Below, piece after piece: positions 2,996 through 27,890 of a stretch of 29,733 nucleotides of DNA. Below the pieces are notes generated by a model. It was not told the origin of the DNA, ran no database searches, and saw nothing but the letters and a program-made list of their open reading frames with translations. Numbering within the stretch: position 1 is the stretch's first letter; every line of letters begins with the position of its first letter. The DNA is from a virus, in the IMG/VR virus record IMGVR_UViG_3300010885_051081, positions 1 through 29,733 of that record; one strand, 5' to 3'. The translations under genes and the position numbers were made by a program.

Positions 2996-3607
2996 TTATT
3001 TTGTATAACTAAAGTATTTTGTTGTAAGTGCCTTACGATGATCTAAACCATTAGTACCACCATTAATTCTTTTTGTTAATACTGTAATTGTAGCCTCATC
3101 AACTCCTTTATCACATATGTCCCATAATTTGTTTTTATCAAAGAAGAACATTGCTGATTCAAAAGCAAACTCAGTAGCTACCAAATCAGGATTAGTCATA
3201 ATTTCTGGTTTATTTAAATACTTAGCGAATGCTTCATAGTTTGACTTACCTGTTAATTGCAAAGCACCACGACCTCTAAATTTATATCCATCTCCAGATG
3301 CTTCATCACCATTACCCATTCTACTACCATATACTCTATTAGCAATCTTTTCAGGTTGCTTAGCATAAGATTCTTCTAAATTGCCTGGAAAGTATTTACC
3401 AAAGGTAGCTGCTAATCCAGTAGCTGAATAATTTAAGTTTTCAGCAAATAGTTTATACTCACCAGTCTCATGTGCTGTTTGTGCAAAGAAGTGAGCAGCT
3501 CTTGTAGGCGTTAATTTATAGTAAGCCATTGCAGCTTTTAAAGTTCCAGGTCCAAATGAACCATCTGCTATAACTCCAATTTTAGTTTGTAAATTTTTTA
3601 AACTCAT
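2996..3607 (-). CDS. GH19 (chitinase-like) endolysin
   Basis: This 203-aa protein has the glycoside hydrolase family 19 fold signature. FFAQTAHETGEY (residues 40-51) carries the catalytic-acid glutamate at about 47. KFRGRGALQLTGKSNYEAF (109-127) is the conserved substrate-cleft motif. TKRINGGTNGLDHR (about 178-191) is the usual C-terminal motif. Residues 5-31 resemble half of a peptidoglycan-binding repeat. Phage GH19 enzymes hydrolyse the glycan backbone of peptidoglycan at lysis. No signal peptide is seen, so export would need a holin; a holin-like gene is at 9002-9295. The start overlaps the stop of the transpeptidase-like gene by 1 bp. Confidence 0.9.
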   Translation of the reverse strand: MSLKNLQTKIGVIADGSFGPGTLKAAMAYYKLTPTRAAHFFAQTAHETGEYKLFAENLNYSATGLAATFGKYFPGNLEESYAKQPEKIANRVYGSRMGNGDEASGDGYKFRGRGALQLTGKSNYEAFAKYLNKPEIMTNPDLVATEFAFESAMFFFDKNKLWDICDKGVDEATITVLTKRINGGTNGLDHRKALTTKYFSYTK

Positions 3608-4191
3608 TATTTTATATCTGTTGATTCAATTAATGTATAGGTAAATGAATTACCATGTTTTTCTTTTGCTATACGACAAATAGTCATAAACTCTTCAAAG
3701 TCAGCTGCTTTCTTAAATACTTGACATCCTTCAGACCAGTTCTCAACATAAGTTGAATCTACACCAGCTTTATGGATATTAATACCAAATACTCCCTCTT
3801 GAATCTTCGACTCATCATAAGTCATATCTCTATTAGCATCACGATAAACCTTAACTGGTTTGTTTTGACCTAATGCTTCATATTTACCTTGATGTAATCT
3901 GATAGTGTGGGATCCTCTATATTGACCTTCAACTAAACGAGCAACACCAGCTGCATTATGATATTCTTTAACACCTTTTGTACCTGGATCTGTTGTGCAA
4001 GTCCAAGTATGAAATTTCCATTCGCTACCTACTTTATAAGATAAAGTCATTGTATCGTCAAATACATTAGTAACTTTATTTCCAGTTGCTGAGTTTCTAA
4101 CTCCAACAATATTTACATCGTAATCTCCGTTCTCAAACCAAGCATAACCTTTAGCTTTAACGGCACCTTCAATTTGTTCTTTTGTGTACAT
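3607..4191 (-). CDS. L,D-transpeptidase (YkuD)-like protein
   Basis: In this 194-aa protein the C-terminal half has VFGINIHKAG (His140) followed by NWSEGCQVF (Cys156). This is the spaced His...(S/T/E)-G-C pattern of the YkuD catalytic cysteine site. YkuD enzymes make L,D cross-links in peptidoglycan or act on stem peptides. Ahead of it lie beta-rich segments with RDANRDMTYDESK. No signal peptide is present. It overlaps the GH19 gene by 1 bp, so cell-wall action at lysis, or cleavage of the host wall at entry, is plausible. It could also be a phage-specific family that only keeps the fold; the catalytic His-Cys pair is intact. Confidence 0.65.
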   Translation of the reverse strand: MYTKEQIEGAVKAKGYAWFENGDYDVNIVGVRNSATGNKVTNVFDDTMTLSYKVGSEWKFHTWTCTTDPGTKGVKEYHNAAGVARLVEGQYRGSHTIRLHQGKYEALGQNKPVKVYRDANRDMTYDESKIQEGVFGINIHKAGVDSTYVENWSEGCQVFKKAADFEEFMTICRIAKEKHGNSFTYTLIESTDIK

Positions 4192-4219: not shown

Positions 4220-4648
4220 TTACTTATTTAACTGTGATTGTGTATGTTCAATTAACCACTGTTCTACATTTGGTATCTGTCTTAGGAAATCCAACTCATA
4301 AACATAACACATATACTCCTCATTCTCTTTTGCTATTTTGATTTTATCATGTTTAATACATAAGTGCATAGACTCATGTACCAATACTGCTGCTATATTG
4401 TTTATGTTTTTAAGCTTTGCATCTTGAGAAGATATTAAAATAGTTGAATCTTCTGTAGTAGAAAAGTTACCGTTCCAAAACCCAATATGATTACAATGCT
4501 TTACAACTATCTTGTATTTTTCTATATCGGTTTTCTTTATTCTATCTAAAGCAAGTTGAACATCCGACTTCCAACCATCACCAACATCATCGATTGTAAT
4601 TCGAGGTGTGCTAAGTGTAACTAAAAATAATATTAATAGTAACTTCAT
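4220..4648 (-). CDS. Secreted HExxH metallopeptidase-like protein
   Basis: This 142-aa protein starts with a short hydrophobic signal segment (residues 1-14). AAVLVHESMHLCIKH puts HExxH at residues 91-95, and the following helix (EENEEYMCYVYELDFL) offers a Glu as third ligand. This suits a small zincin acting in the periplasm or at the cell surface. The family is not certain. It overlaps the short CsgG-like gene upstream by 4 bp (ATGA) and so belongs to the same operon as the envelope cassette. Possible roles are processing of the exported barrel or T9SS proteins, or lysis; neither is shown. Confidence 0.6.
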   Translation of the reverse strand: MKLLLILFLVTLSTPRITIDDVGDGWKSDVQLALDRIKKTDIEKYKIVVKHCNHIGFWNGNFSTTEDSTILISSQDAKLKNINNIAAVLVHESMHLCIKHDKIKIAKENEEYMCYVYELDFLRQIPNVEQWLIEHTQSQLNK

Positions 4649-5088
4649 AACCCAAATACAGCAGCTGTTATAGCTTTCTTAATCGCAGATGATAGTGTTG
4701 TTTTAGAAAATGGAATTGAACCTTCTTGTAGTTCAACCATTATAGCTCGTACTTCAACATCAGATTCACCAATACCTTCGTACTTGATTCCATTATAAAA
4801 TAAACGAACACCTACTTGAGTTGTTTGATTTGATTTTTCCATTCCAGCAATTCTGAATGTAGATTTAGGAAGTCCAAAATGATATACCTCAACCATAATA
4901 GGATTTCCTTTTTCAGATAAACAAAACTTATTAGACAATTCCTCTTCAGCAATTTGCTTGATACCAAATATTATATCTTTGGTTTTAAACTCACGCACCT
5001 TAGCTGTTACATAAACAGTATCTACTTTAACACACTCTTGTCCTAAAGAGAATAAAGGTAGCAATAAAAATAATAATAATTTTTTCAT
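4645..5088 (-). CDS. Short CsgG-like secreted protein
   Basis: The start is chosen at 5088 (MKKLLLFLLLPLFSLGQ). A longer reading frame to 5169 puts 27 unlikely residues before a clean signal peptide and overlaps the previous gene. The mature protein (about 130 aa) resembles the C-terminal half of the CsgG protein at 8292-9002. Shared positions are EVYxF, a G-x-x-K-x-x-QTT segment, the G-x-GE strand, and a final FxxSTxxxxxKKAI-like helix. It therefore looks like a truncated paralogue of the CsgG pore subunit, lacking the N-terminal region. It is paired with a barrel gene (5091-5897), as CsgG itself is with 6862-8292. Confidence 0.65.
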   Translation of the reverse strand: MKKLLLFLLLPLFSLGQECVKVDTVYVTAKVREFKTKDIIFGIKQIAEEELSNKFCLSEKGNPIMVEVYHFGLPKSTFRIAGMEKSNQTTQVGVRLFYNGIKYEGIGESDVEVRAIMVELQEGSIPFSKTTLSSAIKKAITAAVFGL

Positions 5089-5090
5089 GA

Positions 5091-5897
5091 TTAAAATTTT
5101 AGATTTGTTCCAATTAATATATTGTGCATTACACCCCACTTTGGAGTGGTATTCACATTCATTCTCCAATCAATATTGAGTTTGAATTTCTTATGTACTT
5201 TAATTCCAATGTTGTTTCCAACTACTGCATTAAAGGTATTTGACTTAGAATAGAAATGTGCTCCTAAATCATAGTATGGAGAACATAAGGTAATAAATGC
5301 TTCAGGTCTCCAATCAAGTCTTTTTGATAAAGTAATTTCTTTTTGTATTATCAACACACTATATGGAACTAAAACAAAATAAGCATCCTTATCAGTCTTC
5401 TTACCATTTGCTACTACTGAAGTTCCTAACTGAATACCAGCAGTTATCTTTTTAAATTCCCACATTCTTGTTACACTTAAACTAGAATTAAGTGTCATTC
5501 CCATTCTACCTAGATTTAAATGGTAATACCATTTCTTGCGTCTGTAATAAAATGAATATGTTTGTTGAGATAAATCAAATGTTAAAATTGCATTTATACC
5601 AAATCCTTTACCTCCATTAATTCTACTATACCCTATACCAATACCAGGTCTAAACTTAAATGTTTCATAAGTTGGACTTCCTATTAAAGCAAAGTCAGCT
5701 GCTGTAAGCATTGGATTAGGTTTAACTAAAGATCCTCCTCCAAACGATCTACCTTGAGCACCTACAACATTATTTTGTGTGTTTCCAAAATCTTGAGGAG
5801 CAGCTGCTGATGGTGGTGGTGGTGCTGGAGCAACTGTTGGAGTAGGTTGTGCTAACGACCAAATAGGTAAAAGTAGTATTAATATTAGCTTTTTCAT
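5091..5897 (-). CDS. Outer-membrane beta-barrel protein
   Basis: This 268-aa protein has a signal peptide (MKKLILILLLPIWSLAQ, cut about residue 17), a Pro/Ala-rich stretch (TVAPAPPPPSAAAP), and then from about residue 75 an alternating-aromatic beta pattern ending in Phe (GTNLKF), typical of outer-membrane barrels. The last ~45 residues (GIKVHKKFKLNIDW) match the end of the barrel at 6862-8292 (NIKLTKKFKLSIN), so the two are paralogues. No enzyme motif is seen. It may be a pore, an adhesin anchor or a lysis factor. It lies between the lectin-like gene and the short CsgG-like gene with almost no spacing. Confidence 0.68.
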   Translation of the reverse strand: MKKLILILLLPIWSLAQPTPTVAPAPPPPSAAAPQDFGNTQNNVVGAQGRSFGGGSLVKPNPMLTAADFALIGSPTYETFKFRPGIGIGYSRINGGKGFGINAILTFDLSQQTYSFYYRRKKWYYHLNLGRMGMTLNSSLSVTRMWEFKKITAGIQLGTSVVANGKKTDKDAYFVLVPYSVLIIQKEITLSKRLDWRPEAFITLCSPYYDLGAHFYSKSNTFNAVVGNNIGIKVHKKFKLNIDWRMNVNTTPKWGVMHNILIGTNLKF

Positions 5898-6865
5898 CAG
5901 TTAGTAAATCCAGTTCTAATTAGACGAAAATCTGTAGAACCACCATTTACTGGACTTGATATTGTATATGATTGAACTCCAGGATAAGTTGCCTTTAAAT
6001 TTAAATTACTTATTTTAATTATATTCCATTCGGCTGTGGTAAACAATCTATACTTTGGAACTGGATTCATCCAATTAAAAAATCTACCTGATATCATTCC
6101 ATAAGTGTAATATGAATCAGATACTGTTATCTTAGAATCGTTATTAACATCTTGTAAATAATACTTTTTAGCATTAACACTATTTGTTATAACGGTTGAT
6201 AGTATAGATTGTGCATCAGTATTTAGTAATGGAGGCATAAGTAATGAATCTACTACCATATACCACTCTATTGAAGGATTTGATGTCTTAGCTATTGTAT
6301 ATTTACCAGTTGCATCAGTATAAGTAATACCATCTAATACCCAAGGTGTTGTAGTAACAATATAATCAAATTCAATTACATAGGGTAGTGATGTGTTAGG
6401 TAAGTCATTCCATTTACCACCACTAACAAATTGAGTATAATCTTCATTACCTGCATTGTTAGGTTCTCCTGGATTCCAGTTAGTATAAGTTACAGGTTCT
6501 CCAGTTACCCACACAAATGAACCCTCAACAACTTCATCACTAAATCCAATCCATCCAGAAGGCCAAGTATTATATACAAATGTTTGCTCAGCATTATCAG
6601 CAATAGTTACTAAATGTCCTCCCATATTAATACAAGCTTGTTTAGCATCAGTCCAAATCATTGAACCTGTTGATCTATAATAGGAGTGACTATTATAGTT
6701 TGTTTGTGAAGTAAATCCAGTTATAATTGGAGTTGTTCTTTTGTAAATCTTAACAGGTATTCCTGAGATTCCCACCTCATTAGCATTGTAAACATAACCT
6801 GAATAGTTAAATGTCTGTGCTATTGATAGAATAGGTAATAGAAGTAGTAATAGTAATTTTCTCAT
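5897..6865 (-). CDS. C-type lectin protein with nested regulatory-like and dockerin-like domains
   Basis: The start is set at 6865 (MRKLLLLLLLPILSIAQ signal peptide, 322 aa in total). The 7 extra N-terminal residues of the longer frame are unlikely, and this start gives a 4-bp ATGA overlap with the barrel gene upstream. Residues 20-42 (SGYVYNANEVGISGIPVKIY) and 179-191 (GITYTDATGKYTI) look like the two halves of one CarboxypepD_reg/CnaB-like sandwich. Between them, at about 55-168, lies a C-type lectin domain with WIGFSD, EPNN (EPN calcium/sugar motif) and WND. Residues 238-283 (DVNNDSKITVSDSYYTYGMISGRF) are a dockerin-like calcium loop shared with the protein at 9668-11569. No T9SS tail is visible. 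Binding of surface glycans is likely. Confidence 0.72.
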   Translation of the reverse strand: MRKLLLLLLLPILSIAQTFNYSGYVYNANEVGISGIPVKIYKRTTPIITGFTSQTNYNSHSYYRSTGSMIWTDAKQACINMGGHLVTIADNAEQTFVYNTWPSGWIGFSDEVVEGSFVWVTGEPVTYTNWNPGEPNNAGNEDYTQFVSGGKWNDLPNTSLPYVIEFDYIVTTTPWVLDGITYTDATGKYTIAKTSNPSIEWYMVVDSLLMPPLLNTDAQSILSTVITNSVNAKKYYLQDVNNDSKITVSDSYYTYGMISGRFFNWMNPVPKYRLFTTAEWNIIKISNLNLKATYPGVQSYTISSPVNGGSTDFRLIRTGFTN

Positions 6866-8292
6866 ATTGCAAATCTTGTTCCACACATTATTGTAAAGTT
6901 CATAACATCTTGTTGAATGGCATAAGTACCACCCATATTAATGCTAAGTTTAAATTTCTTAGTTAGCTTAATGTTTGTTCCTATCAAAGGCATAACTACA
7001 TAAGGTGATTTTAAAACAAGATCGTTGTAGTAGCTAATAAAAGGAGCATATATAAATAGACCTGTAAACTTAATGTCTATTTTCTTAGTTGCCTTCCAAT
7101 CATACATTCCACCAGCTATGAAAGCTGTACCAGTAAACTTTTCTTGATAAACCTGTCCCCAAGAAGTAGTGGCTAAATAAATAACTTTAAGATTCTTTCT
7201 TAGAGTCCAAAGCTGTCCTACAGCTAAAGTTCCATACATAGAACCTTTACCATAGAAACTGACTGTAGCTGTCCCAGATATTAAGTCAATTCTCTTTTTG
7301 TGTATAATAGCATAAAATGCTGTTCCATTAGGACCTTTCATTGCTGAAGTATAATCTAATAAGAAACCGTGAGTTCTCTTACCATCCCATCTCATTGAAG
7401 TAAATCCACCAGTCACTTTACCTCCATAAGTCATATCGTTCTTTTTGAAGTTAAAGCCTGTAAAGTCGCTACTTAGTATGGTTGTAGGTCCATTCTTCTG
7501 AGTTGATTTTTGCACTGAAGTAACTGCTCCTCCTACAACATTAGATGATTTCTTTTCTTCAGTTCCGTCTGCTTTAGTGTCAGGTGCTTTTTTTTCTGTC
7601 TCATTACCACTACCCGATTTCTCATTTGTATTAGAGCTTGAAGTACTTCCAGTAGTTGAACCACCTTCAGTATTATTTCCTGTTACAGATGATTGAGATG
7701 ATTGATCTCCTCCTTCAGTTGATTGATTTGTACTTGTACTGTTTCCTCCCTCTGTTGTAGAGCTGCTCTCAGTTGAGGAAGTAGATCCTGTATTTGGTTT
7801 TGATTCGTTGCTTGATTGATTTCCTTCAGAAGTTGTTTGACTTCCTGAGTTATTATTTTGGTCATTATTTTTTTCTTTTTTATTTGAAGCTGTGTTGGCA
7901 CTTCCAGCAGCAGCCATTATATCAGTCATACCTTGCATCTCTGATTGTAAGTCAGCTGCTGCAGATAATGAATTGAGGATACTTATTGCGTTTATTGCAA
8001 CATCCTGAGCAATAGTTAAGACACTTGATATTCCTATTACCGAGCCACAAGGACTACTTCCACCATAAGAGCTGTATATGTTTTGAGCCCAATATTGAAA
8101 GTCCCCGTTTTGTATTTGTGATTGTGTAAATGTATTAATCTGTCCGTAATATGTTATAGTAACTCCATCCTTTGGTACATCTATTGTTTTTAAAACACCA
8201 GTACATGGATCACTATAAGCATAAGTAAAAGTGCTTTGTGATTTAATCACGTTAAGTACTAATACAAAACAAATTGTTATAAGTAATTTCAT
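6862..8292 (-). CDS. Outer-membrane barrel with Ser/Thr/Gln-rich linker
   Basis: This 476-aa protein has an N-terminal signal (residues 1-19), a small folded domain with CTG/PCG cysteines to about residue 130, and a low-complexity linker at about 135-260 rich in Ser, Thr, Asn, Gln, Gly and Glu. A 200-residue beta-barrel-like C-terminus follows with alternating aromatics and the terminal segment KKFKLSIN ... MCGTRFAI. That end is related to the barrel at 5091-5897. The long flexible linker suggests the barrel is anchored in the outer membrane and holds the N-terminal domain away from it. It overlaps CsgG by 1 bp. Confidence 0.65.
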   Translation of the reverse strand: MKLLITICFVLVLNVIKSQSTFTYAYSDPCTGVLKTIDVPKDGVTITYYGQINTFTQSQIQNGDFQYWAQNIYSSYGGSSPCGSVIGISSVLTIAQDVAINAISILNSLSAAADLQSEMQGMTDIMAAAGSANTASNKKEKNNDQNNNSGSQTTSEGNQSSNESKPNTGSTSSTESSSTTEGGNSTSTNQSTEGGDQSSQSSVTGNNTEGGSTTGSTSSSNTNEKSGSGNETEKKAPDTKADGTEEKKSSNVVGGAVTSVQKSTQKNGPTTILSSDFTGFNFKKNDMTYGGKVTGGFTSMRWDGKRTHGFLLDYTSAMKGPNGTAFYAIIHKKRIDLISGTATVSFYGKGSMYGTLAVGQLWTLRKNLKVIYLATTSWGQVYQEKFTGTAFIAGGMYDWKATKKIDIKFTGLFIYAPFISYYNDLVLKSPYVVMPLIGTNIKLTKKFKLSINMGGTYAIQQDVMNFTIMCGTRFAI

Positions 8293-9002
8293 TATCTTTT
8301 AAATAATCCCTTTTTAATCATTTTAGATATGATCCTAGAAGAACCAGTTTCTAATGCCTTCTTAGTAGTAATACCTATTGTTGATTGATTAAATTTAATA
8401 TCTGTCACATCCTCTAATATAGATGCTGTTTTAATTGTTGAAGCTTCACCTAATCCACTTCCTGTAAACAATTCACCTGTCTCTGCATCTACAAATCTAA
8501 CCTGTAAACCTAAGCGAGTTGTTTGAGTTGTCTTAGACGTACCATTTATTTTAATTACCTCATCTTCAGATACTGAGAAGTCATACACTTCCATATACAC
8601 AAAATACTTAGCTAATTTAATTTTTCCCTTCCCATCAATTACATTCTCAGTAAAACCTTTTGCTGAAGCTTTAAACTGTGTAATCATTCTTTCTTTTATC
8701 TCTAACCTGTCTTCTGTAAATACAAAACGATTAGTCATATCTAAAAACTCTAAAACCATATTTGCTACTCCTAAACCAACTCTTTTATCTTTTAGTTCAG
8801 GATACATTTCATACAACTCTTCATTAATACCAATCTTTAAAATCTGAATAGGATATTTTAATGAATCGCTATAATCACTTACAACATCCATTGATTGCTT
8901 CTTTTCAAACTCAGATTGATACGATTCCGTCTTAACAGAACCAATCTGTGCCTTACCCAATAAAGGTAAGACACACATTAGTATAATTGTTAATATTCTC
9001 AT
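8292..9002 (-). CDS. csgG: CsgG-family outer-membrane secretion protein
   Basis: In this 236-aa protein a signal peptide (MRILTIILMCVLPLLGKAQ) precedes a CsgG-like body. GLGVANMVLEFLDMTNRFVFTED (about 75-100) matches the CsgG start region. A repeated beta segment VYMEVYDFSV and the strand QTTRLGLQVRFVDAETGELF are the typical CsgG core. A helix with STIGITTKKALETG follows. No lipobox cysteine is visible after the signal, unlike canonical lipidated CsgG. CsgG forms an outer-membrane nonamer that exports curli subunits. Phage csgG homologues are known from marine T4-like phages. No curli subunit is seen here, so the cargo may be the neighbouring proteins or none. Confidence 0.8.
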   Translation of the reverse strand: MRILTIILMCVLPLLGKAQIGSVKTESYQSEFEKKQSMDVVSDYSDSLKYPIQILKIGINEELYEMYPELKDKRVGLGVANMVLEFLDMTNRFVFTEDRLEIKERMITQFKASAKGFTENVIDGKGKIKLAKYFVYMEVYDFSVSEDEVIKINGTSKTTQTTRLGLQVRFVDAETGELFTGSGLGEASTIKTASILEDVTDIKFNQSTIGITTKKALETGSSRIISKMIKKGLFKR

Positions 9003-9295
9003 TAGTTAGCTTCTTCTTCCTCAACATCAGTTCCTGCATCAAGAGTATTCTTGTGCTTTTCGTTATCTGCTTTTTTAGTAACATATTTATCAACTGCTGC
9101 AATACCAAACGAACCTAAAGTAATCACTAAGAATCCATTAAAAATGTATTCATTAATAAGTAACTCTTTGCCCATATAACCTGTTACTAAATCAACACCC
9201 ATAGCAATTACCATCACCATAAATGCCATAAAACCAACTACTGACTTTTCATTGATATCATTGTTGTCACTAAATAAATTTTTTAAAAATCCCAT
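9002..9295 (-). CDS. Two-TM holin-like membrane protein
   Basis: This 97-aa protein has two hydrophobic segments, at about residues 18-38 (SVVGFMAFMVMVIAMGVDLV) and 50-68 (YIFNGFLVITLGSFGIAAV). Both termini are charged, and the C-terminus is acidic (DVEEEEAN). Size and topology suit a class II holin delivering endolysin to the cell wall, and a GH19 endolysin lies 6 kb downstream on the same strand. The first residues (MGFLKNLFSDNND) look like an amphipathic or cytoplasmic start. Assignment rests on topology only. It overlaps CsgG by 1 bp. Confidence 0.55.
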   Translation of the reverse strand: MGFLKNLFSDNNDINEKSVVGFMAFMVMVIAMGVDLVTGYMGKELLINEYIFNGFLVITLGSFGIAAVDKYVTKKADNEKHKNTLDAGTDVEEEEAN

Positions 9296-9331: not shown

Positions 9332-9664
9332 TTACCAAGGAGCATCCTCAGTTTCACTCTTTTTAGCCTTTTTTTCAACTGGCTTCTCAACAATCTTTTC
9401 TTTAATGATGGTTGTTGTACCACCATTCTTTTGTTGTTGAGTATTCTCTTGATTCTGAGTTAAATTAATAACTACAGGAGCAGCTGCTGGAGCTGTTACT
9501 GGAGCAACCGTCTCAGTTTTGTGTTCTTCTTTATCTTCAGAGTGACCTCCAAATACTGTAGTTGATAAATAAATACCACCACCTGTTACTACCGTTGTTA
9601 AAGTACCAATAATCGTTTTTTTCAAACCTGACCAAGTACCATCATTTGTTGTTTCTTCTGACAT
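9332..9664 (-). CDS. One-TM protein with Pro/Ala- and Gln-rich stalk
   Basis: This 110-aa protein has a short N-terminal cytoplasmic part, then a membrane helix at about residues 17-40 (TIIGTLTTVVTGGGIYLSTTVF). The outside part has a Glu/Lys/His patch, an Ala/Pro/Val stretch (VAPVTAPAAAPVV), a Gln/Asn-rich segment (NLTQNQENTQQQKNGG) and a lysine/glutamate-rich end. The layout resembles an inner-membrane spanin or a TonB-like stalk spanning the periplasm. It lies between the holin-like gene and the T9SS protein, which favours a spanin or envelope-spanning role, but no motif proves it. Confidence 0.55.
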   Translation of the reverse strand: MSEETTNDGTWSGLKKTIIGTLTTVVTGGGIYLSTTVFGGHSEDKEEHKTETVAPVTAPAAAPVVINLTQNQENTQQQKNGGTTTIIKEKIVEKPVEKKAKKSETEDAPW

Positions 9665-9667
9665 AAT

Positions 9668-11569
9668 CTATTTTATTAATATTGTTTTATTTGTAACTGT
9701 ATTTGTTAAAGTTTTTAATACTGTATAATAAGTACCTGCTGATAAGTCTTTCAAGTTAGCTGTGTAGCTATAAGTTCCATTAGGTAAAAAGCGATTAAGA
9801 ACATTAATTACATTATTACCAACTCCATCTACAAAAGATAGATCCACATCACCATCTTGCTCAACATTAAACTGAATCACTACTTCACCAGTTGTTGGGT
9901 TAGGAAACACTAAGATATCATTATTCTTCAGTTTAATTCCAGATCCTATTCTATTAATAGCTACTAAACCATTTGTAGGAATGATGTTCATATCTTTAGC
10001 ATTTTCATCACCAACAAATTTTCTTGTAGTGTATAATGGACTTTCATTCCAAACATTCTGAGGAGCTTTAGCTATAAAATTAAAGGTAAATACTATTTCT
10101 CCGTCCGTTAAAAGGTTGTTTCCATTAGTCATATCAAATCCACCCCATTCAATTATACCGTCCTGAGGATTAATAAAAGACATCCAATTCATCGACTTCT
10201 CTCCATTAGTTAATCTTCTAAAGTCCAACAAATCACTATCAAATTTTAAAGCTAATTGTAATGCTCCTAACTTATTAGCACCTGTTATTACTTTAACTGG
10301 TACTTCAACTAAGTTTCCTTCATTCACTAATAACTCAGGCAATCTAATCTCTACTGTTTGTAAACTTCCATCATACTCAGTTGCTTCATCTATAATGTGA
10401 TATGGAGCATTTGAGGGATTATTAATTTGGATTGGAGTTAAACGAGCCATATGATATCCAGTCCCATTTACATCACCTGGTACTGCAACATAGAAGTCAG
10501 CTGAGTCAGGCATACCTGGTAAAATATTATATGTGAAGTTTGTTACGCCTGGTATAATAGAGGTAAAATTAGTGCTTGGAGCTCCAACTACAGTTGTATA
10601 TTCAGTAGCTGTAAAGAATTTAATATCAGGTACAGCATTAGGCCAAGTTGCAAATCTTCCAGAGATTCTACCAAAGATTCCATAGACATCAGAGATTGTA
10701 ATATCATTTGAACCATTTACATCTCCAGTGTAATAATCAAATCCTTGTGGAGTTGTTGATGTGGTTACAATAGTGTTTAGGTACTGAGCGTCTGGTGTTG
10801 AAACAACACTACCTACACCCATTGTATCACCTCTTACTTCTAATCTAATATTATAGAAGGTTGTATCTATGTTAGTATTGATGTTATACTTTCCTAAAGA
10901 GTTAGTTGCATACACTCCAGCTGTTGTCCAAGTACCAGCTGTCTTTAACTTCTTAGATAACACAACTGTTAAGCTTTTGGATGGAGTTGCATTTACATTT
11001 GTAAAAGTACCATGAAATTTAATTCCTGGTTTAATAAAGTTACCACCGTAGTTATATAAAGATAAACCTACATCATTACCTGCTTGCTCTGTTGCTGTTT
11101 GAGTAAAAGTCGGAAGACCAACCCAAGTTAAATTTGAGATCGTTGCAAGACTTTGGAATGCTGTTGGAGGAGCTAAATGAGTGAATGTGATTTCAAACAT
11201 TTCTCCATCAGGCAAAGTATAAACTGCACTACTCCCAGTATAAACCAAAGTAATGGTTATATATCCACTTATATTATTATCTACATATTGTGTGTATAGA
11301 TTTGGAGGAGTTCCTATTAAGGATACTGTAGCAGCTGTAAAAGCAATCTTATCGTAATAAACTCTGAACTGTGTTCCGGTAGTTTTAGTTACGGTTGTAT
11401 TTCTTAAAGTGATTTTTGCTTTAGTAACTCCAGCTACACTTGTACCAACTGTATAGTCAGTAGGGATGATAGCCCAAATTCCAGGACTTGGAGCAGAAGG
11501 GCCTGTTTGTGAAAAAATTGTTGTGGATAGTAATAATAGACATGCTATTAAACATTGTAGTTTATTCAT
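9668..11569 (-). CDS. Secreted cohesin/dockerin-like protein with T9SS type A sorting domain
   Basis: In this 633-aa protein the signal peptide occupies residues 1-20. Residues 27-170 look like a first cohesin-type beta-sandwich (FRVYYDKIAFTAATVSLIG). Residues 183-235 resemble a regulatory-like sandwich. Residues 283-330 (DVNGSNDITISDVYGIFGRI) are a dockerin-like calcium loop. Residues 408-505 are a second cohesin-like domain (VPVKVITGANKLGALQLALK, then DLLDF). The last ~80 residues (LVFPNPTTGEVVIQF ... DLSAGTYYTVLK ... ILIK) are a T9SS type A sorting domain. The T9SS should therefore export it across the outer membrane and anchor or release it. In a phage genome this is unusual, and surface display or a virion-associated adhesin is the likely role. 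Confidence 0.82.
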   Translation of the reverse strand: MNKLQCLIACLLLLSTTIFSQTGPSAPSPGIWAIIPTDYTVGTSVAGVTKAKITLRNTTVTKTTGTQFRVYYDKIAFTAATVSLIGTPPNLYTQYVDNNISGYITITLVYTGSSAVYTLPDGEMFEITFTHLAPPTAFQSLATISNLTWVGLPTFTQTATEQAGNDVGLSLYNYGGNFIKPGIKFHGTFTNVNATPSKSLTVVLSKKLKTAGTWTTAGVYATNSLGKYNINTNIDTTFYNIRLEVRGDTMGVGSVVSTPDAQYLNTIVTTSTTPQGFDYYTGDVNGSNDITISDVYGIFGRISGRFATWPNAVPDIKFFTATEYTTVVGAPSTNFTSIIPGVTNFTYNILPGMPDSADFYVAVPGDVNGTGYHMARLTPIQINNPSNAPYHIIDEATEYDGSLQTVEIRLPELLVNEGNLVEVPVKVITGANKLGALQLALKFDSDLLDFRRLTNGEKSMNWMSFINPQDGIIEWGGFDMTNGNNLLTDGEIVFTFNFIAKAPQNVWNESPLYTTRKFVGDENAKDMNIIPTNGLVAINRIGSGIKLKNNDILVFPNPTTGEVVIQFNVEQDGDVDLSFVDGVGNNVINVLNRFLPNGTYSYTANLKDLSAGTYYTVLKTLTNTVTNKTILIK

Positions 11570-11628: not shown

Positions 11629-13815
11629 TTACATAAGAATTATGTGTCCAACATAGGTTTTTTCTCTACCCATATAATCTCTTACTCTTATTTTATAGAC
11701 ATATGTATCAGCATTAGCTAATACACTTCCTCTAATTTTGCCATCCCAACCCTTAGTAATATCAGTTGTTTGATAGATCATATTTCCCCATCTATCGTAT
11801 ATACTCATAACAAACCCTTCTGATCTAACACCAACACCACTTACCATAAATACATCGTTATTACCTTGTTTATGTGGTGTAAAAGTGTTTGGAATATATA
11901 TTACATAGTCATCATCGATCTTCAACAACTTAGTAATTGTATCTTTACATCCAAAGCTATTAGTGACAATTAGGGTGACTGGATAAGTATCTACAATATT
12001 ATATGTATGTGATCCATTTTGAGTATTTGCTGTGTCATATATAGGTGCTACAAAAATGTCTCCAAAATCCCAATGCCAATTAGTAATAGGTAATCCTATA
12101 GTTGATTGGTCATAAAAAACTATATCATTCAATAATATGTTTGGATCTTCAGGTGTATAATAAAAGTAAGCATCTGGTTTTGGAAACACAGTGACTGTTG
12201 TAACAGGTGAAATTCCAATACATCCATTAGTTCCAATTACCGTTAGTTGTGTGGTATAAATTCCAGCTGATAGTTGATAATTTATATAACAACTGTTAGT
12301 TGGCACTCCCATAAAATTCCAAATACAATTTGAATATCCAAACGTAGTACTACCAAATTCCACATTAAATGGTTCACAACCTGATAATAATGAAGTAGTA
12401 AATGTAGGTATTGGAGCAATGTTTACAAACACGTTTACATAGCTTGTATCATTTGGAGAGCATCCATCTGAAGTAATGAGAGTGTAGGTTGTTGTAACGG
12501 TTGGGGATACTGAAATTGTATTTGTGTTTATATTTCCAGGCATCCAAGTGTATGTGTAAGGACCTCCATTACCCAACACTCCAGTTGCTGTAAATGTTGT
12601 TACTCCTCCAATACAAATGTCCCCAAATGTTGGAGTATAGTTTGTTTGTAAAGGTGGTAATACATTTACACTAACAGATGATATTGAAGTACAACCATTA
12701 ATATCTTGAACACCAACTGAGTAGAATGTACCACTAATTGGCTGAACCATGAATGATCCTGCAGTTGCTGATGTTGGAGGCCAAGAGTAAATGTATGGAG
12801 GAGTTCCGCCACTTGCATTAGCGTTTAAAGTACTAATACCGTTATAACAAATTATTAATGGTGATGCAGTTGGTGAGAGAGTTAGTTGAGGTGGATTGAT
12901 TAAAGCAAACGTACCAGTTGATGTACAACCACTTACTGTAGCTGAGACACTATAAACTCCAGCTAAGTATGTAGCTGTATTTGTTGAACTTGAATTGGCT
13001 GACCAAATGTATGATGAATAGCTTGGCGGTAATATGACTGTTCCAAAGTTACCAAAACATAGAGGATTAACAATTGTTGGTGTAATAGGTAAAGCTCCAT
13101 TCACAGCTACAAATGCTGTTAATGTTGCTGATTGACCACAACCATTACCTATAATACATGTATAAGTTGTGCTTACTGTTGGAGTTACAACTATAGTTTG
13201 TGGATTACTAGTACCAGGAATATGAAGCCAATCATATGTGTTTAAAGTTCCTGGAGCTACAGTTCCACATCCACCACCAGGATTAGCCGTTAAGACAGCT
13301 GAGCCTCCCAAACATATTGATGTAGTAGAAGTTGTTATTGACCCTGTAAATGCTAATGGAGTTCCAGGCACAGTAAATGAATTGATTGCTGTCCAAGCTC
13401 CAGGAGGCCCTCCTAATGCTCCACATACATTTTCTCTTGCTCTAAAGTAATAAACTTGTCCTGGGCATAAAGAGGAGAATGGAATAAAGATTGGAATGTA
13501 AGGTTCTAAGATACAGTTATCAAACCAAGACGGAGGTCCATAACCAGGTATATTTAATAGTGATCGATACCAAGGATAAGTGTTCCAACCAATACCGGAA
13601 CAGTAAGGTACTAAGCCACTTAATGTGTTAGTACACTTCATTTCTACTTCTAAATAATAAGGACCACAGCCACATGTAGCGGCATTTGAACTTGCATTTA
13701 TTGTTACTCCAGTAGCTCCAACTACATAATTATAATTTACTAAAGGCATTCCATGACACGAAACAATCCGTGTATAAGTTAGCATTAGTAACATTATTAG
13801 GATTGTTTTTTTCAT
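11629..13815 (-). CDS. Large PKD/adhesin protein with T9SS type B (CHU_C) C-terminus
   Basis: This 728-aa protein has an N-terminal signal (MKKTILIMLLMLTYTRIVSC) and then multiple ~80-residue Ig/PKD-like repeats with conserved Cys, Gly, Tyr and Thr (for example SDGCSPNDTSYVNVFVN and GTPPYIYSW). A clear PKD domain (NWHWDFGD ... THTYN-like) lies at about 560-620. Residues 637-728 (IPNTFTPHKQGNNDVFMVSG ... IYDRWGNMIYQT ... GWDGK ... TYVYKIRVRD) are the gliding-motility-associated CHU_C domain, i.e. T9SS type B sorting. The protein is probably an extracellular adhesin. It is first in the cassette, 50 bp downstream of the next gene, so it may start the operon. Confidence 0.85.
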   Translation of the reverse strand: MKKTILIMLLMLTYTRIVSCHGMPLVNYNYVVGATGVTINASSNAATCGCGPYYLEVEMKCTNTLSGLVPYCSGIGWNTYPWYRSLLNIPGYGPPSWFDNCILEPYIPIFIPFSSLCPGQVYYFRARENVCGALGGPPGAWTAINSFTVPGTPLAFTGSITTSTTSICLGGSAVLTANPGGGCGTVAPGTLNTYDWLHIPGTSNPQTIVVTPTVSTTYTCIIGNGCGQSATLTAFVAVNGALPITPTIVNPLCFGNFGTVILPPSYSSYIWSANSSSTNTATYLAGVYSVSATVSGCTSTGTFALINPPQLTLSPTASPLIICYNGISTLNANASGGTPPYIYSWPPTSATAGSFMVQPISGTFYSVGVQDINGCTSISSVSVNVLPPLQTNYTPTFGDICIGGVTTFTATGVLGNGGPYTYTWMPGNINTNTISVSPTVTTTYTLITSDGCSPNDTSYVNVFVNIAPIPTFTTSLLSGCEPFNVEFGSTTFGYSNCIWNFMGVPTNSCYINYQLSAGIYTTQLTVIGTNGCIGISPVTTVTVFPKPDAYFYYTPEDPNILLNDIVFYDQSTIGLPITNWHWDFGDIFVAPIYDTANTQNGSHTYNIVDTYPVTLIVTNSFGCKDTITKLLKIDDDYVIYIPNTFTPHKQGNNDVFMVSGVGVRSEGFVMSIYDRWGNMIYQTTDITKGWDGKIRGSVLANADTYVYKIRVRDYMGREKTYVGHIILM

Positions 13816-15247: not shown

Positions 15248-17488
15248 TTATTTCTTTAAAAACTTTTTATTTAATTCCTTTGCAATCTGTATAGCACTAT
15301 TACAATCAACTACTGAAGCATCCTTACCGTACATGTTACGAAATGCTCTACCACTTCCACTACTCATGAAAGAAGTGAGTAAGTTAGCATAAGCTTTTTC
15401 TTTTTCCTCATTTGTTGTAACACTATTTCCACCACCTTGTATAAAGAATGACAATACTGAAATATTTAATTCATTTCTCATTTTATCAACTTGACGTTTA
15501 GTATGTAGTTCAGCTGATGTACCACCATAACTACTACATCCAGGTTCTCCATCCGATATATTAAGAAAGTAACTATCCATCTCACTTGAGCTTGGTACTA
15601 ACATATTCTTAGTTAACATTGCCTCAAAACATAAACCTTCAGGTGTCATTGAAGTTGGATTAAAACTACTGAACACAGCTACTAAATGATTAAACTTATT
15701 AACACGACTATCATATACTGATAACGTAGCTGGAGTATCTCCACTACCACCATGAGTAGTAACTCTTATTGATATCTGTACATTTATATTCTGAGTATAG
15801 CTTGCAGCTTTAGCAATAGCTGTTGCCATCTGTATTGTTGATGACCACTTACCACCACTCATACTTCCTGAGCCATCTAACGATATGTGTATATTAGCTT
15901 TCTTATATCTATCTACACTAATCTGCTTAAACACGTTTTCGATTCCATATCCAGCATGTGCAAGTCTCTTACCATCTATCTTACCACTACGTAAACGAGT
16001 ATCAACTCTTTCACGAGACTCATTATGCAATTGTAATTTTTTACCTAACAAACCTCCCATCTCAGTACCTAAACGAACAGCATCAGCATACTCTTCTCTA
16101 CTACCTCCAAACATATGTAATGTATCCAACTTCTTTCTCTCATCTCTAAGAGCATCGTACTGATTCCAAAGATCATTATAAGCAATACTACTACTTAACA
16201 TATTTCTCATCTTCTCATTCACCTCTTCTATTTGAGCATTAAGCTCAACTAACGCTTGAATTTGATTACTTTTAACATAGTCATACAATAATGCTGTACG
16301 AACTCCAACACTTTTATCGCCAACTGTCTGAACATCAATAGTCTGATTTGCAATAGCATCTAATTGTTGTTGTAATTTTTTAGTAGTACTTTTCTTATTT
16401 GTATCACCATTTAAGAAGTTTTTCTGCTCATTAAAAGCTTTTCTAATAGCTTCTACCTCAGCAGGTGTAAGAGCATCTGAAAGCCCTAATCCACCACCTG
16501 TACCTTCATCTTCACCACCATCACCACCTTCACCTTTTCCTTCTCCATCTTCTGTTTCTGTAGTTTCACCTTTACCAGTACCACCTTCACCTTCTCCATC
16601 ACCAGGATTAGTCTTATTCTCTTCTTCTTTCTTTTCGAAATCAATACCTTCTTGAATTAGTATATCAAGAATGTCACAAGTAATAGTAAGAGCTTCATCA
16701 GTATTTTTAATACGAGAAATATTAGGTAAATCAATAATATCAACAATCTTATCCAATCCAGGCATTGCCTTGACATTGAAGTTTGGATTCATCATATTTA
16801 CTATATGAAACAAGTAGTTATCGAGGTTTGTAGGATTAGAAAACTCAGCAGCTAAAAATCCTTTAGTTACATTTTTAGAGTTCCAATAGTGATCATATAA
16901 CTTATGATAATAAGCTTTGTAACCTGGAGAAGTAGTGAATATGTAGTTATCAATACGACGATCTTCTACCCAATTCAATAACGATTTAGCTACTGAAAAT
17001 AGATTAGAATTGTTTAAAGTATGAGTATAGTATTTTTCTCTTATAGCTTCATACTGAGGACATCTCTGATTACGCATATTATCGAATATTTCAAAGTCTG
17101 TCATTATAATGTGAGAAGCTTCGTGTAATGCTAAACCTACAGTAACATCAAAGTTTGTATCCTTAATATCAGTCGATAAGTTAATAGCTTTACCATTAGT
17201 GAATGAATCACTTCCAGCCCACATTACAGGAATATCCTGCTTAGTTACGATCTTCACGAAGTTAGTAATAGCTCGACGATAGTTAGTTAACTTGATTAAC
17301 TTCACTGTATCAGCACTACCAACACGCTCAGAAGACATTCCACTGAACTTATCAGTATTATCCCACCTATCATCCATCCAAAAGCTTGAATAGCTATGCT
17401 TTGTGTTTAACCCACGATAGTCGGTCGATTTCTTCTTCTTCTTTAGTGCAGTTCTAGCACTATCCCAGTAGTTTGTGTAATTTGCCAT
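15248..17488 (-). CDS. Metallopeptidase-like plus VWA protein (CobT-like layout)
   Basis: In this 746-aa protein residues 1-200 hold a zincin-like region with LALHEASHIIM (HExxH at 122-126) and LNWVEDRRID (Glu175). Residues 287-340 are a Gly/Glu-rich acidic linker. Residues 530-720 form a VWA domain with MIDAS motif DGSGSMS (Asp538, Ser540, Ser542) and downstream SMTPEG (Thr). This fits metallopeptidase-like plus VWA proteins that pair with MoxR/CobS AAA ATPases, and phages often carry CobT-like partners of CobS. Here the AAA partner is at 18516-19664. The likely role is an ATPase-driven remodelling or ligand-handling machine; cobalt chelation is not implied. Confidence 0.82.
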   Translation of the reverse strand: MANYTNYWDSARTALKKKKKSTDYRGLNTKHSYSSFWMDDRWDNTDKFSGMSSERVGSADTVKLIKLTNYRRAITNFVKIVTKQDIPVMWAGSDSFTNGKAINLSTDIKDTNFDVTVGLALHEASHIIMTDFEIFDNMRNQRCPQYEAIREKYYTHTLNNSNLFSVAKSLLNWVEDRRIDNYIFTTSPGYKAYYHKLYDHYWNSKNVTKGFLAAEFSNPTNLDNYLFHIVNMMNPNFNVKAMPGLDKIVDIIDLPNISRIKNTDEALTITCDILDILIQEGIDFEKKEEENKTNPGDGEGEGGTGKGETTETEDGEGKGEGGDGGEDEGTGGGLGLSDALTPAEVEAIRKAFNEQKNFLNGDTNKKSTTKKLQQQLDAIANQTIDVQTVGDKSVGVRTALLYDYVKSNQIQALVELNAQIEEVNEKMRNMLSSSIAYNDLWNQYDALRDERKKLDTLHMFGGSREEYADAVRLGTEMGGLLGKKLQLHNESRERVDTRLRSGKIDGKRLAHAGYGIENVFKQISVDRYKKANIHISLDGSGSMSGGKWSSTIQMATAIAKAASYTQNINVQISIRVTTHGGSGDTPATLSVYDSRVNKFNHLVAVFSSFNPTSMTPEGLCFEAMLTKNMLVPSSSEMDSYFLNISDGEPGCSSYGGTSAELHTKRQVDKMRNELNISVLSFFIQGGGNSVTTNEEKEKAYANLLTSFMSSGSGRAFRNMYGKDASVVDCNSAIQIAKELNKKFLKK

Positions 17489-18515: not shown

Positions 18516-19664
18516 TTAGAATCCTAAGTCAGCAGTATCACCCATTAAGTTATCAGCAGTACCATCATTTACATACTTCTGCACTAATTGCTTAACGAAA
18601 GTACGCTCAGATTGTAAACCTCCATCCTGTGAATATAGTGGATAAATACTTACTTCAGCACACTCAGTAAGCGTGAATCCATCAGTCATTAATCCAGCCA
18701 TCTCCATTACAGATCGTGTTGATATTGGTGTTTGAATACGAGCACTATCCGACTTAATTTCCGAACGTGTTTGTGATGCAATCTCAGCTAAGCTATCAGC
18801 GATCTCCTTATTTAACGTAGGATAAATTTGTAACATTAATTGTGATTCTTCAACAGGTTTTAAGAATGGAATCTCTGCAATAACAAAGCGATCTAATAAT
18901 GCTCTATCCATCACACGAACAGCAGTATACTCACTACCAATGTTAGCAGTACCAATGAAGCTCACACCCTTAGCAACTTTAACAGTTGGAGTATTAACAG
19001 CCTCATCCATACGTAAATAACGCTGACCTGGATCTAACACTGTCATTAAGATATTCCAAGCCTCTGGATGAGCACGAGAAACCTCATCTAACAATACTAC
19101 CATATTCTCAGTCTGTATAGCCTTAACAAACGCAGATTCATTAAAGAAAGTACCTGCATCCTTGCTAAAGTGTGTATTACCAATCAAAGTACCACGTGGA
19201 TCTTGAGTAGCCCCTAAATTCACATAGAAGATCTCTCTATTCATTGCTTTCGCCACAGCCATTGCAGTTTGTGACTTACCACAACCTGTAGGACCTGTTA
19301 ATAGTATGTTACTACCACGCATTACTGAACGACATAAGAACTTCCAAGTTAAATCCTCACAATATAATGATTGAGGACGTTTAGATACGCATGTACTAAG
19401 GAATGCCATAATGTCATTCACTTCTTCAGTAGCAGCTTCTAATACTTCTGCTGATACTACTGGCTCTAAGGCATTAGGATCTACTTGACGCCATTTACCT
19501 GATGCATTTGATAACCACATACCTGCTTTATGCGCTTTACTTAGCGTCATATAAGTAATCTGTGTAGTGATGTCTTCACCCGTTTTAGTGTCAGTTGCAC
19601 GTACTGATTGTCCTTTCTTTCCTGCTCCGATTGCGACTTTTGCGATAATTGCGTTGTTTGTCAT
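18516..19664 (-). CDS. MoxR/CobS-type AAA+ ATPase
   Basis: The start is set at 19664 (MTNNAIIAKVAIGAGKKGQ, 382 aa), matching the ACATACACTATG leader; the 13 extra residues of the longer frame are A/T-rich and unlikely. After a unique ~100-residue N-terminus, Walker A is GPTGCGKS (124-131), Walker B VVLLDEVSRA (189-198), a sensor-like segment is GTANIGS, and the arginine region is DRALLDRF. MoxR ATPases act as chaperone-like motors with VWA partners, and CobS-like members are common in phages. Its VWA partner is at 15248-17488 and two small genes lie between them, so the four genes probably form one functional unit. Confidence 0.88.
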   Translation of the reverse strand: MTNNAIIAKVAIGAGKKGQSVRATDTKTGEDITTQITYMTLSKAHKAGMWLSNASGKWRQVDPNALEPVVSAEVLEAATEEVNDIMAFLSTCVSKRPQSLYCEDLTWKFLCRSVMRGSNILLTGPTGCGKSQTAMAVAKAMNREIFYVNLGATQDPRGTLIGNTHFSKDAGTFFNESAFVKAIQTENMVVLLDEVSRAHPEAWNILMTVLDPGQRYLRMDEAVNTPTVKVAKGVSFIGTANIGSEYTAVRVMDRALLDRFVIAEIPFLKPVEESQLMLQIYPTLNKEIADSLAEIASQTRSEIKSDSARIQTPISTRSVMEMAGLMTDGFTLTECAEVSIYPLYSQDGGLQSERTFVKQLVQKYVNDGTADNLMGDTADLGF

Positions 19665-19684
19665 AGTGTATGTTTTTAGTTTTT

Positions 19685-19724
19685 TTATATATTTAAAGAT
19701 CACCCTAATTGGGTAGTTATGCTA
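19685..19724 (-). promoter_or_regulatory. Predicted promoter, AAA ATPase operon
   Basis: TAAATATATAA (19685-19695) preceded by AGGGTGATCTT on the minus strand. GGTTG is absent (TAGCA in its place). It lies 70.5 bp from palindrome copy 2 and about 21 bp before the start at 19664. Confidence 0.6.
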
Positions 19725-22024: not shown

Positions 22025-22741
22025 TTAGTTAAATTTAATAGGGTTAAGTTTTTCTGCATGTATTGTGGCACTACGGTAACCATATGGAGATCCACTAACA
22101 TAGTTTGAATCAAAGATCACCTTGTATACTGCACCATCAGCAATGAATGTAGGATTGAGTTTAATATACTTTGCAATTGCAGGACTTGGTAGCTTAGTGC
22201 CTGTAACCCAGTATTTAGTGCGAGCTCCACGAGATCTCTTCTCAGTGAATAACCTGCAATACATGTCAGTCTCAATATTGCAAGCTTTATGCATTGCTTT
22301 TCTCCATGCACAAAATGCAGGGCTTACTGATTTGTGATACTGTAACTTAGTGATTTTAGTGGGCTTAACGGTTTTAGTGGGTTTCATAGTGTGTTTTTTA
22401 TTCGCATATAATCCAGCAGAAGGTTGGCCATCCCAACTACACTCATCTTTAAAGGTCACTTCATAAACCTCATTATTAGCGGTAAATGTAGGATTATTTA
22501 GCACATATACTGATATCTCATAGATAGGTAAAGCTCTGTGTTTACCCCAGTATTTACTACGTGCTCCACGCATACGCTTTTCAGTGAATAATCGGATGTA
22601 AGGAACATTCTCTTTTTTAATGCCTAACTTCTTATGCATCTCGTTTCTATACACTGCTAATGCAGGTACTAAGTGATCATGATATTCAGACTTTGTGATC
22701 TTAGCGATTTTAGTGGGCTTAACGGTTTTAGTGGGTTTCAT
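22025..22741 (-). CDS. Internally duplicated protein (fused tandem genes)
   Basis: This 238-aa protein is made of two copies of the same ~115-residue unit (1-117 and 118-238). Each begins MKPTKTVKPTKI, then has YH...PA...R..MHK and RLFTEKRxRGARxKYW, and closes with NPTF/VYxVxF. The second copy starts with its own ATG (at 22386) preceded by the same AAAAAACACACT leader as the first, so it seems to be a gene duplication that kept the leader but lost the stop of copy 1. Basic residues and repeated KPTK suggest nucleic-acid binding. It may be translated as a fusion and also as a shorter product. Confidence 0.72.
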   Translation of the reverse strand: MKPTKTVKPTKIAKITKSEYHDHLVPALAVYRNEMHKKLGIKKENVPYIRLFTEKRMRGARSKYWGKHRALPIYEISVYVLNNPTFTANNEVYEVTFKDECSWDGQPSAGLYANKKHTMKPTKTVKPTKITKLQYHKSVSPAFCAWRKAMHKACNIETDMYCRLFTEKRSRGARTKYWVTGTKLPSPAIAKYIKLNPTFIADGAVYKVIFDSNYVSGSPYGYRSATIHAEKLNPIKFN

Positions 22742-27230: not shown

Positions 27231-27500
27231 TTATCCCTCTACTATCCCGTCATTCCAATACCCTAAGAACAAGCATCCTCCAGCTCTGTCGTCTGGATAA
27301 TCATATGCAAACATGATATCATGTGTCCCGTTGTACTTGGGGCATACAAGCTCTATGTAGTTGTAGTTCTTAGGCTTTGATAGTACGGTTAGCGTGAACT
27401 CTAATCCTGCACGATTCTCTGAAGATAGCACTGATAAGAACTTAATGTACTTATTGCTTCTATTACTGTGGGTCTCCCCGATTACTATTGTCTTTGTCAT
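27231..27500 (-). CDS. Small protein, tandem paralogue 1
   Basis: This 89-aa protein begins MTKTIVIGETH and shares with its neighbour at 27520-27792 the features NYxxIEL/FIELV, DxMFAYDxPDxR, a Gly-rich LFxGYWNDG ending and similar length. They are tandem paralogues separated by 19 bp. The shared core looks like a small beta-rich fold, possibly a phage regulatory or host-inhibitor family. The function is unknown. Confidence 0.62.
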   Translation of the reverse strand: MTKTIVIGETHSNRSNKYIKFLSVLSSENRAGLEFTLTVLSKPKNYNYIELVCPKYNGTHDIMFAYDYPDDRAGGCLFLGYWNDGIVEG

Positions 27501-27519: not shown

Positions 27520-27792
27520 TTATTCCCCTACTACCCCGTCATTCCAGTATCCGATGAATAAGTAACCATCTACTCTTTGATCTGGTGCATCATATGCGAA
27601 CATTACGTCCATGTCACTTCCGTAACCTTTACTTACTAATTCGATGAATGCCCACTCTTCTGGTCGGTTTGATACTAAGAATGGATCTACGCATACTACG
27701 TTGTAATCCCCGGTTAACTGCTTAATGAACTTAATGTTTGTGTACTTCTTTGTCTTTGTGTGCTCTGCGCCTAATACGATTGTTTGTGTCAT
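27520..27792 (-). CDS. Small protein, tandem paralogue 2
   Basis: The start is set at 27792 (MTQTIVLGAEHTKTKKY, 90 aa) because the longer frame to 27828 would overlap the tRNA-like gene at 27822-27890, and the paralogue starts identically. It shares WAFIELVSKGYGSDMDVMFA, DAPDQR and LFIGYWNDG with the previous gene. Copies this close suggest recent duplication and divergence. Confidence 0.62.
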   Translation of the reverse strand: MTQTIVLGAEHTKTKKYTNIKFIKQLTGDYNVVCVDPFLVSNRPEEWAFIELVSKGYGSDMDVMFAYDAPDQRVDGYLFIGYWNDGVVGE

Positions 27793-27821
27793 GTTGTGTT
27801 GTTTTATATTGTTACTGTTTG

Positions 27822-27890
27822 TAGTCATAGCAGGACTTGAACCTGCATCATCCTAACCCGAGTTAGGGCTCTACATTGAGCTATATGACT
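27822..27890 (-). tRNA. tRNA-like gene with short anticodon loop (isotype uncertain)
   Basis: On the minus strand the acceptor AGTCATA pairs perfectly with TATGACT. The D-stem is GCTC/GAGC with a 6-nt loop (AATGTA) lacking the usual GG. The T-arm GCAGG-TTCAAGT-CCTGC is perfect. The anticodon arm is CCTAA/TTAGG enclosing only 6 nt (CTCGGG), so no standard 7-nt anticodon loop forms. CGG (Pro) is only a guess. The discriminator is A and no CCA is encoded. It directly abuts the next tRNA gene. It may be a decayed or non-canonical tRNA. Confidence 0.6.

Follow-up and report, generated by a model that had tools for sequence, protein, structure and literature searches.

In bacteria, T9SS type B adhesins such as those of the SprB/SprF system of Flavobacterium johnsoniae combine a Sec signal, a long repeat or PKD-type body and a C-terminal CHU_C domain, and such type B cargo needs, binds and is anchored by PorP/SprF-like proteins (PMC9143113, PMC12618676). 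T9SS sorting domains have also been described on phage genes, namely in Cryophage, for which type A enzymes have been reported together with a PA14 protein (PMC7468147), and in crAss-like phages with BACON proteins (PMC6949934); in these phages host secretion is needed and the genes vary between phage variants. A further type of system is represented by the csgGF modules of pelagiphages and of the methylophage Melnitz, for which either adhesion ('sibling capture') or a role in lysis has been proposed (PMC7029224, PMC9599517, PMC9004378). The locus described here, located in a window of 29,733 nucleotides of viral DNA (the whole stretch that was analysed), resembles each of these systems in part: it encodes a protein with the PKD-type body and C-terminal CHU_C domain of the bacterial adhesins and a putative Sec signal, it places T9SS sorting domains on phage genes that would depend on host secretion and vary between phages, and it includes a phage cassette with a CsgG-fold protein. 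The type B gene and its domains are as follows.

11629..13815, minus strand: type B cargo gene, the main finding (728 aa, T9SS type B cargo; PF13585 and TIGR04131; relatives in contigs L002, L003 and L004)
11641..11898, minus strand: CHU_C type B sorting domain, residues 640-725 (PF13585, 9e-15; TIGR04131, 1.2e-14)
11932..12090, minus strand: PKD domain, residues 576-628 (PF18911, PKD_4, 3.4e-08, 33.9 bits; phmmer match to the PKD region of ColH)
13366..13815, minus strand: signal peptide and N-terminal domain without a named family, residues 1-150 (87% identical in L003)

The reading frame on the minus strand is uninterrupted across all 728 aa. In the Pfam profile search, residues 640-725 match PF13585 (CHU_C) with 55 bits (cut-off 27; E 9e-15), covering profile positions 2-84 of 86, and in the NCBIfam search residues 640-727 of 728 match TIGR04131 ('T9SS type B sorting domain') with 54.2 bits (cut-off 35). 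The complete CHU_C domain that the sequence-only reading had placed behind PKD/Ig-like repeats is thus borne out by two profiles, both well above their cut-offs and both at the C-terminus; of the repeats, a single PKD module in the 728-aa protein exceeds its cut-off, and the others have been seen by eye and are named by no model. We regard the protein as a putative adhesin. By inspection, the protein starts with a hydrophobic Sec-type signal, MKKTILIMLLMLTYTRIVS directly followed by C, and this Cys20 matches a lipobox (I-V-S-C), so that processing by signal peptidase I or II is ambiguous. A lipobox on a T9SS cargo protein would be unusual and would count against the type B cargo reading.

Relatives with 78-79% identity have been found in three viral contigs, at full length in L003 and partially in L002 and L004. 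The comparison of the window with L003 has yielded a dN of 0.14 and a dS of 0.94 (dN/dS ~0.15), and owing to this purifying selection the gene is no chance reading frame; the central residues ~150-310 are best conserved (91% at the amino acid level) and the sorting domain least (61%). Weaker relatives occur in two other phage records (642 kb and 635 kb) with 3 and 4 CHU_C genes, respectively, and a profile search for relatives of the protein has added nothing beyond the single-sequence search. Matches to the 728-aa protein occur in 95 of 296 sampled Bacteroidota genomes, with identities of 25-43% among the matches listed, none of which reaches residues 1-139 (earliest start at residue 140). 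Taking together the close viral relatives and the distant bacterial matches, those listed being devoid of residues 1-139, the gene belongs to a phage lineage and is no fresh acquisition from a host. A recent passenger, meaning that a single phage acquired an adhesin gene from its host and derives no function from it, would agree with the frequency of related CHU_C adhesins in Bacteroidota and with the accessory position of the gene beside a cassette that normally lacks one; we regard it as very improbable, as the relatives in other phages are far closer than any of the listed bacterial matches, which do not exceed 43% and lack the N-terminal region, as dN/dS is low, and as the phage records searched lack the shuttle gene to which type B genes are often linked in bacteria. 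The partial relatives of L002 and L004 show a sharp change within the coding sequence, where DNA identity steps from ~83% to 100% at L002 positions 1295/1296: the shared upstream part of the CHU_C gene (~555 bp) contains 93 differing positions, and from position 1296 of L002 the two contigs are identical across 3,282 bp. The sharpness of the step points to recent recombination or an exchange of ectodomain alleles; an assembly effect may also account for it, both contigs ending within the CHU_C gene.

Regarding the genomic context, the gene directly after CHU_C in L002 and L004 codes for a small protein related to the holin-like TM2 of the window; three more small genes, a gene for 246 aa and the gene of a GH19 endolysin come next, in identical order in both contigs. 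Among the small genes of L002, one resembles Rz-like spanins; the endolysin of L002 is 90% identical to that of the window, and a GH19 endolysin is found near the CHU_C gene of L003 as well. The type B gene is an accessory separate from the neighbouring cassette, with its closest relatives in lysis neighbourhoods. A profile scan for CHU_C has detected at least 332 viral contigs, 80 of which were fetched, and a common order in ~25 of the fetched loci is tail sheath, tail tube, CHU_C protein, small gene, baseplate hub and tape measure. These tail-operon CHU_C proteins are mostly ~819 aa long, carry a signal peptide and belong to myophages (example: L128, 1-12276). In L183 (3840-6276) and similar loci, a PKD-like surface protein is divided among successive secreted pieces, all with a signal peptide of their own, and CHU_C is present solely on the last piece, a secreted protein of 190 aa. 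Of 50 tested records of both kinds, 26 have a terminase.

PKD/Ig-like domains are common on virions. This general frequency, along with the ~25 loci in which the gene is flanked by those of the tail tube and the baseplate hub, where products of a tail operon could serve the virion, would suit a protein that forms a tail part or decoration and has borrowed CHU_C and PKD merely as adhesive modules. We nevertheless hold a virion component to be unlikely, considering that a Sec signal and a complete C-terminal sorting domain would not be expected if the protein were assembled in the cytoplasm and that the closest relatives of the window's gene adjoin lysis genes and no tail genes. Positions next to lysis genes or within tail operons suggest that the CHU_C gene would be expressed late.

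In the window itself, a fragment of 29.7 kb, no capsid or terminase gene has been identified. Further features of the window are a protein that consists of an internal duplication (22025-22741), two small paralogues encoded in tandem (27231-27500 and 27520-27828), and a block formed by a CobT-like gene (15248-17488, phrog_1576) and a CobS-like AAA gene (18516-19703, phrog_249).

Downstream of the type B gene, the window contains a type A cargo gene and the remaining members of a multi-gene cassette, followed by lysis genes.

9668..11569, minus strand: COH, type A cargo of 633 aa that contains cohesin-like and dockerin-like modules (Por_Secre_tail)
9332..9664, minus strand: TM1, 110-aa protein with a single TM segment; its position between COH and the CsgG-fold gene is conserved
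9002..9295, minus strand: TM2, 97 aa with hydrophobic segments, holin-like by inspection; a relative lies directly downstream of CHU_C in L002 and L004
8292..9002, minus strand: secreted protein with a predicted CsgG fold, 236 aa (AlphaFold2 model, Foldseek, VIA)
6862..8292, minus strand: BAR1, 476 aa, with an N-terminal domain, a disordered linker and a predicted 12-stranded outer-membrane barrel (AlphaFold2)
5897..6886, minus strand: LEC, 329-aa secreted C-type lectin with a dockerin-like C-terminal module (Lectin_C, 3.1e-15)
5091..5897, minus strand: BAR2, 268-aa secreted protein, barrel-like by inspection, ending in a strand with terminal Phe (relatives in L064, L069, L090 and L106)
4645..5169, minus strand: SMG, small secreted cassette protein with probable start at 5088, conserved in 72 searched loci
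4220..4648, minus strand: P142, 142-aa secreted protein, conserved in the cassette
3607..4191, minus strand: endolysin-associated protein, 194 aa (phrog_3000; phrog_33083, endolysin)
2996..3607, minus strand: GH19 endolysin (PF00182; the 90% identical relative in L002 matches phrog_181, endolysin)

The type A assignment of COH is based on PF18962 (33.1 bits, cut-off 27), TIGR04183 staying with 18.6 under its cut-off of 23; among 37 COH relatives, Por_Secre_tail has been found in 37, Cohesin in 32 and Dockerin_1 in 12. The 39 LEC relatives contain Lectin_C in 28, Laminin_G_3 in 15 and Dockerin_1 in 8 cases, and EPN and WND motifs, which are typical of calcium-binding C-type lectins, are present in 28 of 39. 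Across these proteins the dockerin-like end is constant and the binding domain differs (C-type lectin, LamG, PA14 or GEVED), and the binding domain has the appearance of an exchangeable tip.

The cassette, consisting of cohesin/type A cargo, one or two small membrane proteins, the CsgG-fold protein, a 12-stranded barrel and a C-type lectin and adjoining lysis genes, is widespread. A scan with the CsgG-fold gene has detected 345 viral contigs, of which 80 of up to 434 kb were fetched, and a single contig, L106 (254 kb, within a MAG), among 84,980 scanned species genomes; L106 is probably of phage origin and ended up in a bacterial bin. Searching this MAG with the window's CHU_C protein has given no match; it contains other CHU_C genes, one with a PorP gene adjacent. 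We have examined 84 cassette loci from 82 distinct records (~37 once near duplicates are removed), and all 84 have the cohesin/type A gene just upstream, then small membrane proteins and the CsgG-fold gene; where the contig extends far enough, BAR1, LEC and SMG usually follow, often with P142, and in many loci GH19 and the 194-aa gene lie nearby. The cassette is also carried by the isolated Flavobacterium phages 'immuto', in which the cohesin gene is split in two and LEC is located upstream, and related cassette phages infect Flavobacterium sp. LMO8. Two tRNA genes occur in the window, tRNA-Gln and tRNA-Glu (54-126 and 1114-1186), and immuto phages have tRNA-Glu and tRNA-Gln near the cassette. 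A chromosomal origin of the genes has been considered and rejected, given the cassette in isolated phages, the terminase in 26 of 50 tested records and the single contig among the species genomes. The sequence-only reading had named absence from all relatives together with chromosomal flanks as the finding that would refute it; the genes are phage genes, present in relatives and without chromosomal flanks, and this refutation therefore fails.

The same reading had taken the side-by-side arrangement of type A and type B cargo as a sign of a dedicated surface-display program. Both genes are real and phage-borne, but their adjacency is not conserved: among 38 virus records that contain the type A cassette, 4 have any CHU_C gene, the CsgG-fold gene is found in 0 of 34 CHU_C-bearing records, and of the 84 cassette loci the window alone has this CHU_C gene or a relative of it within reach. 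The check for conservation of the two genes as a pair in related phages has hence turned out negative. Both cargo types are nonetheless encountered in one record in the window, in L003, in both huge phages, in the four cassette records and in 5 of 32 CHU_C records, and L174, outside the 38-record set, carries a CHU_C gene downstream of a cassette; this gene is unrelated and lies ~6 kb past the type A gene. What supports a display program is accordingly the conserved multi-gene type A cassette and the co-occurrence of cargo types, and not the adjacent pair as a unit.

The 236-aa protein has been modelled by AlphaFold2 from 27 relatives with moderate confidence (pLDDT 69). In the Foldseek comparison of the model with the PDB, ranks 1-23 are all CsgG (E down to 1.1e-08), and VIA has aligned 167 residues to CsgG with a Z of 12.0 at 3.8 A, PelC reaching a Z of 10.2; this monomer model thus predicts a CsgG fold. 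By sequence, a CsgG family match is absent in 27 members of the protein family at E up to 1, a profile search of the PDB with the family has returned no CsgG entry and no named family has been assigned, and by inspection the signal MRILTIILMCVLPLLGKAQ has no lipobox. For lack of a sequence family match and a lipobox, the protein is named CsgG-fold and not CsgG. The AlphaFold2 model of BAR1 shows a confident 12-stranded barrel after a disordered linker, and the closest structures are autotransporter translocators (Z 25.5), with KdgM and FapF near a Z of 20; FapF is a functional-amyloid transporter. One T9SS complex chain, 8gl6_F, is also matched (Z 12.9).

The adjacent endolysin, spanin and holin-like genes invite the reading that disruption of the outer membrane is assisted by the CHU_C gene together with the CsgG-fold/barrel cassette, as has been proposed for the CsgGF of methylophage Melnitz, and a CsgG-type pore hypothesis has been published for pelagiphage relatives (PMC9004378). 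Such a lysis accessory seems to us quite unlikely, since no function in lysis is known for cohesin, dockerin, lectin or T9SS sorting domains and CHU_C genes are found far from lysis genes too.

The reading we lean towards, by a modest degree, is that of a phage-borne T9SS type B cargo which alters adhesion or receptors at the surface of the infected cell late in infection. Just 59 bp separate the CHU_C gene from the type A gene downstream of it, and both share one strand, which makes co-transcription likely; the type B gene and the cassette probably form one transcription unit. No PorP/SprF shuttle (TIGR03519) has been detected in the window or in 20 other phage records, the search being positive in 5 of 5 control bacteria, so the host shuttle would be needed as well as the host T9SS. 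In bacteria, the shuttle gene is often, but not always, linked to the cargo gene; none has been detected in the window. Type B cargo may be an orphan whose shuttle is unlinked (PMC12618676), and the lack of a linked shuttle therefore lowers just the claim of a self-contained system. BAR1 and BAR2 have been considered as PorP/SprF shuttles for the CHU_C protein and rejected, a TIGR03519 match being absent and the BAR1 barrel resembling autotransporter translocators, KdgM and FapF. In the proposed sequence of events, the 728-aa protein would be exported by Sec in late infection of a Bacteroidota host, its CHU_C domain would be recognised by the host T9SS and a PorP/SprF-type shuttle of the host, and the protein would be anchored on the outer surface of the infected cell, where the PKD-like stalk and the conserved N-terminal domain would alter adhesive or receptor properties; export would hinge on the fit between the CHU_C protein and a host PorP/SprF. 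The likeliest benefit would be control of what adheres to the infected cell, either by masking receptors against rival phages or by retaining siblings near burst. The receptors of flavobacterial phages have been proposed to belong to the gliding machinery, of which SprB is a component (PMC7345892), and competing surface cargo could therefore mask them; adhesion that retains sibling cells has been proposed for pelagiphage curli (PMC7029224, PMC9599517). More speculatively, and with considerable doubt, one may envisage a hybrid surface-display apparatus of large Bacteroidota phages, in which a T9SS-anchored cohesin scaffold would dock dockerin-bearing C-type lectins that exit via the phage CsgG-fold/12-strand-barrel route, and interchangeable type B adhesins would be added to re-coat the infected cell.

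If the favoured reading holds true, Bacteroidota phages would routinely hijack a whole host secretion system to alter the surface during infection. Superinfection could be excluded or host cells captured in this way, and new lectins and parts for surface display could be drawn from such phages. Since hundreds of viral contigs and the isolated, culturable immuto phages carry the type A cassette, these ideas are testable. As phage type A cargo has already been published, the principle is known; the open-access papers searched have yielded no specific report of phage type B cargo, of phage cohesin/dockerin or of this cassette, and within that literature type B cargo in phages and the cassette of cohesin, CsgG-fold protein, barrel and lectin seem to be undescribed, the neighbouring cassette being the more surprising part compared with the type B gene. 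In comparison with SprB/SprF, the protein of the window is phage-borne, much shorter, without a linked PorP/SprF and flanked by phage late genes. The pelagiphage and Melnitz modules belong to phages of SAR11 and OM43 hosts and their CsgG and CsgF are recognisable by sequence, whereas the window is without a Pfam CsgG match and has in addition T9SS cargo, cohesin/dockerin modules, a lectin and a 12-stranded barrel. Relative to Cryophage and the crAss-like phages, finally, the window is distinguished by type B (CHU_C) cargo and by a conserved, non-enzymatic cohesin/lectin cassette.
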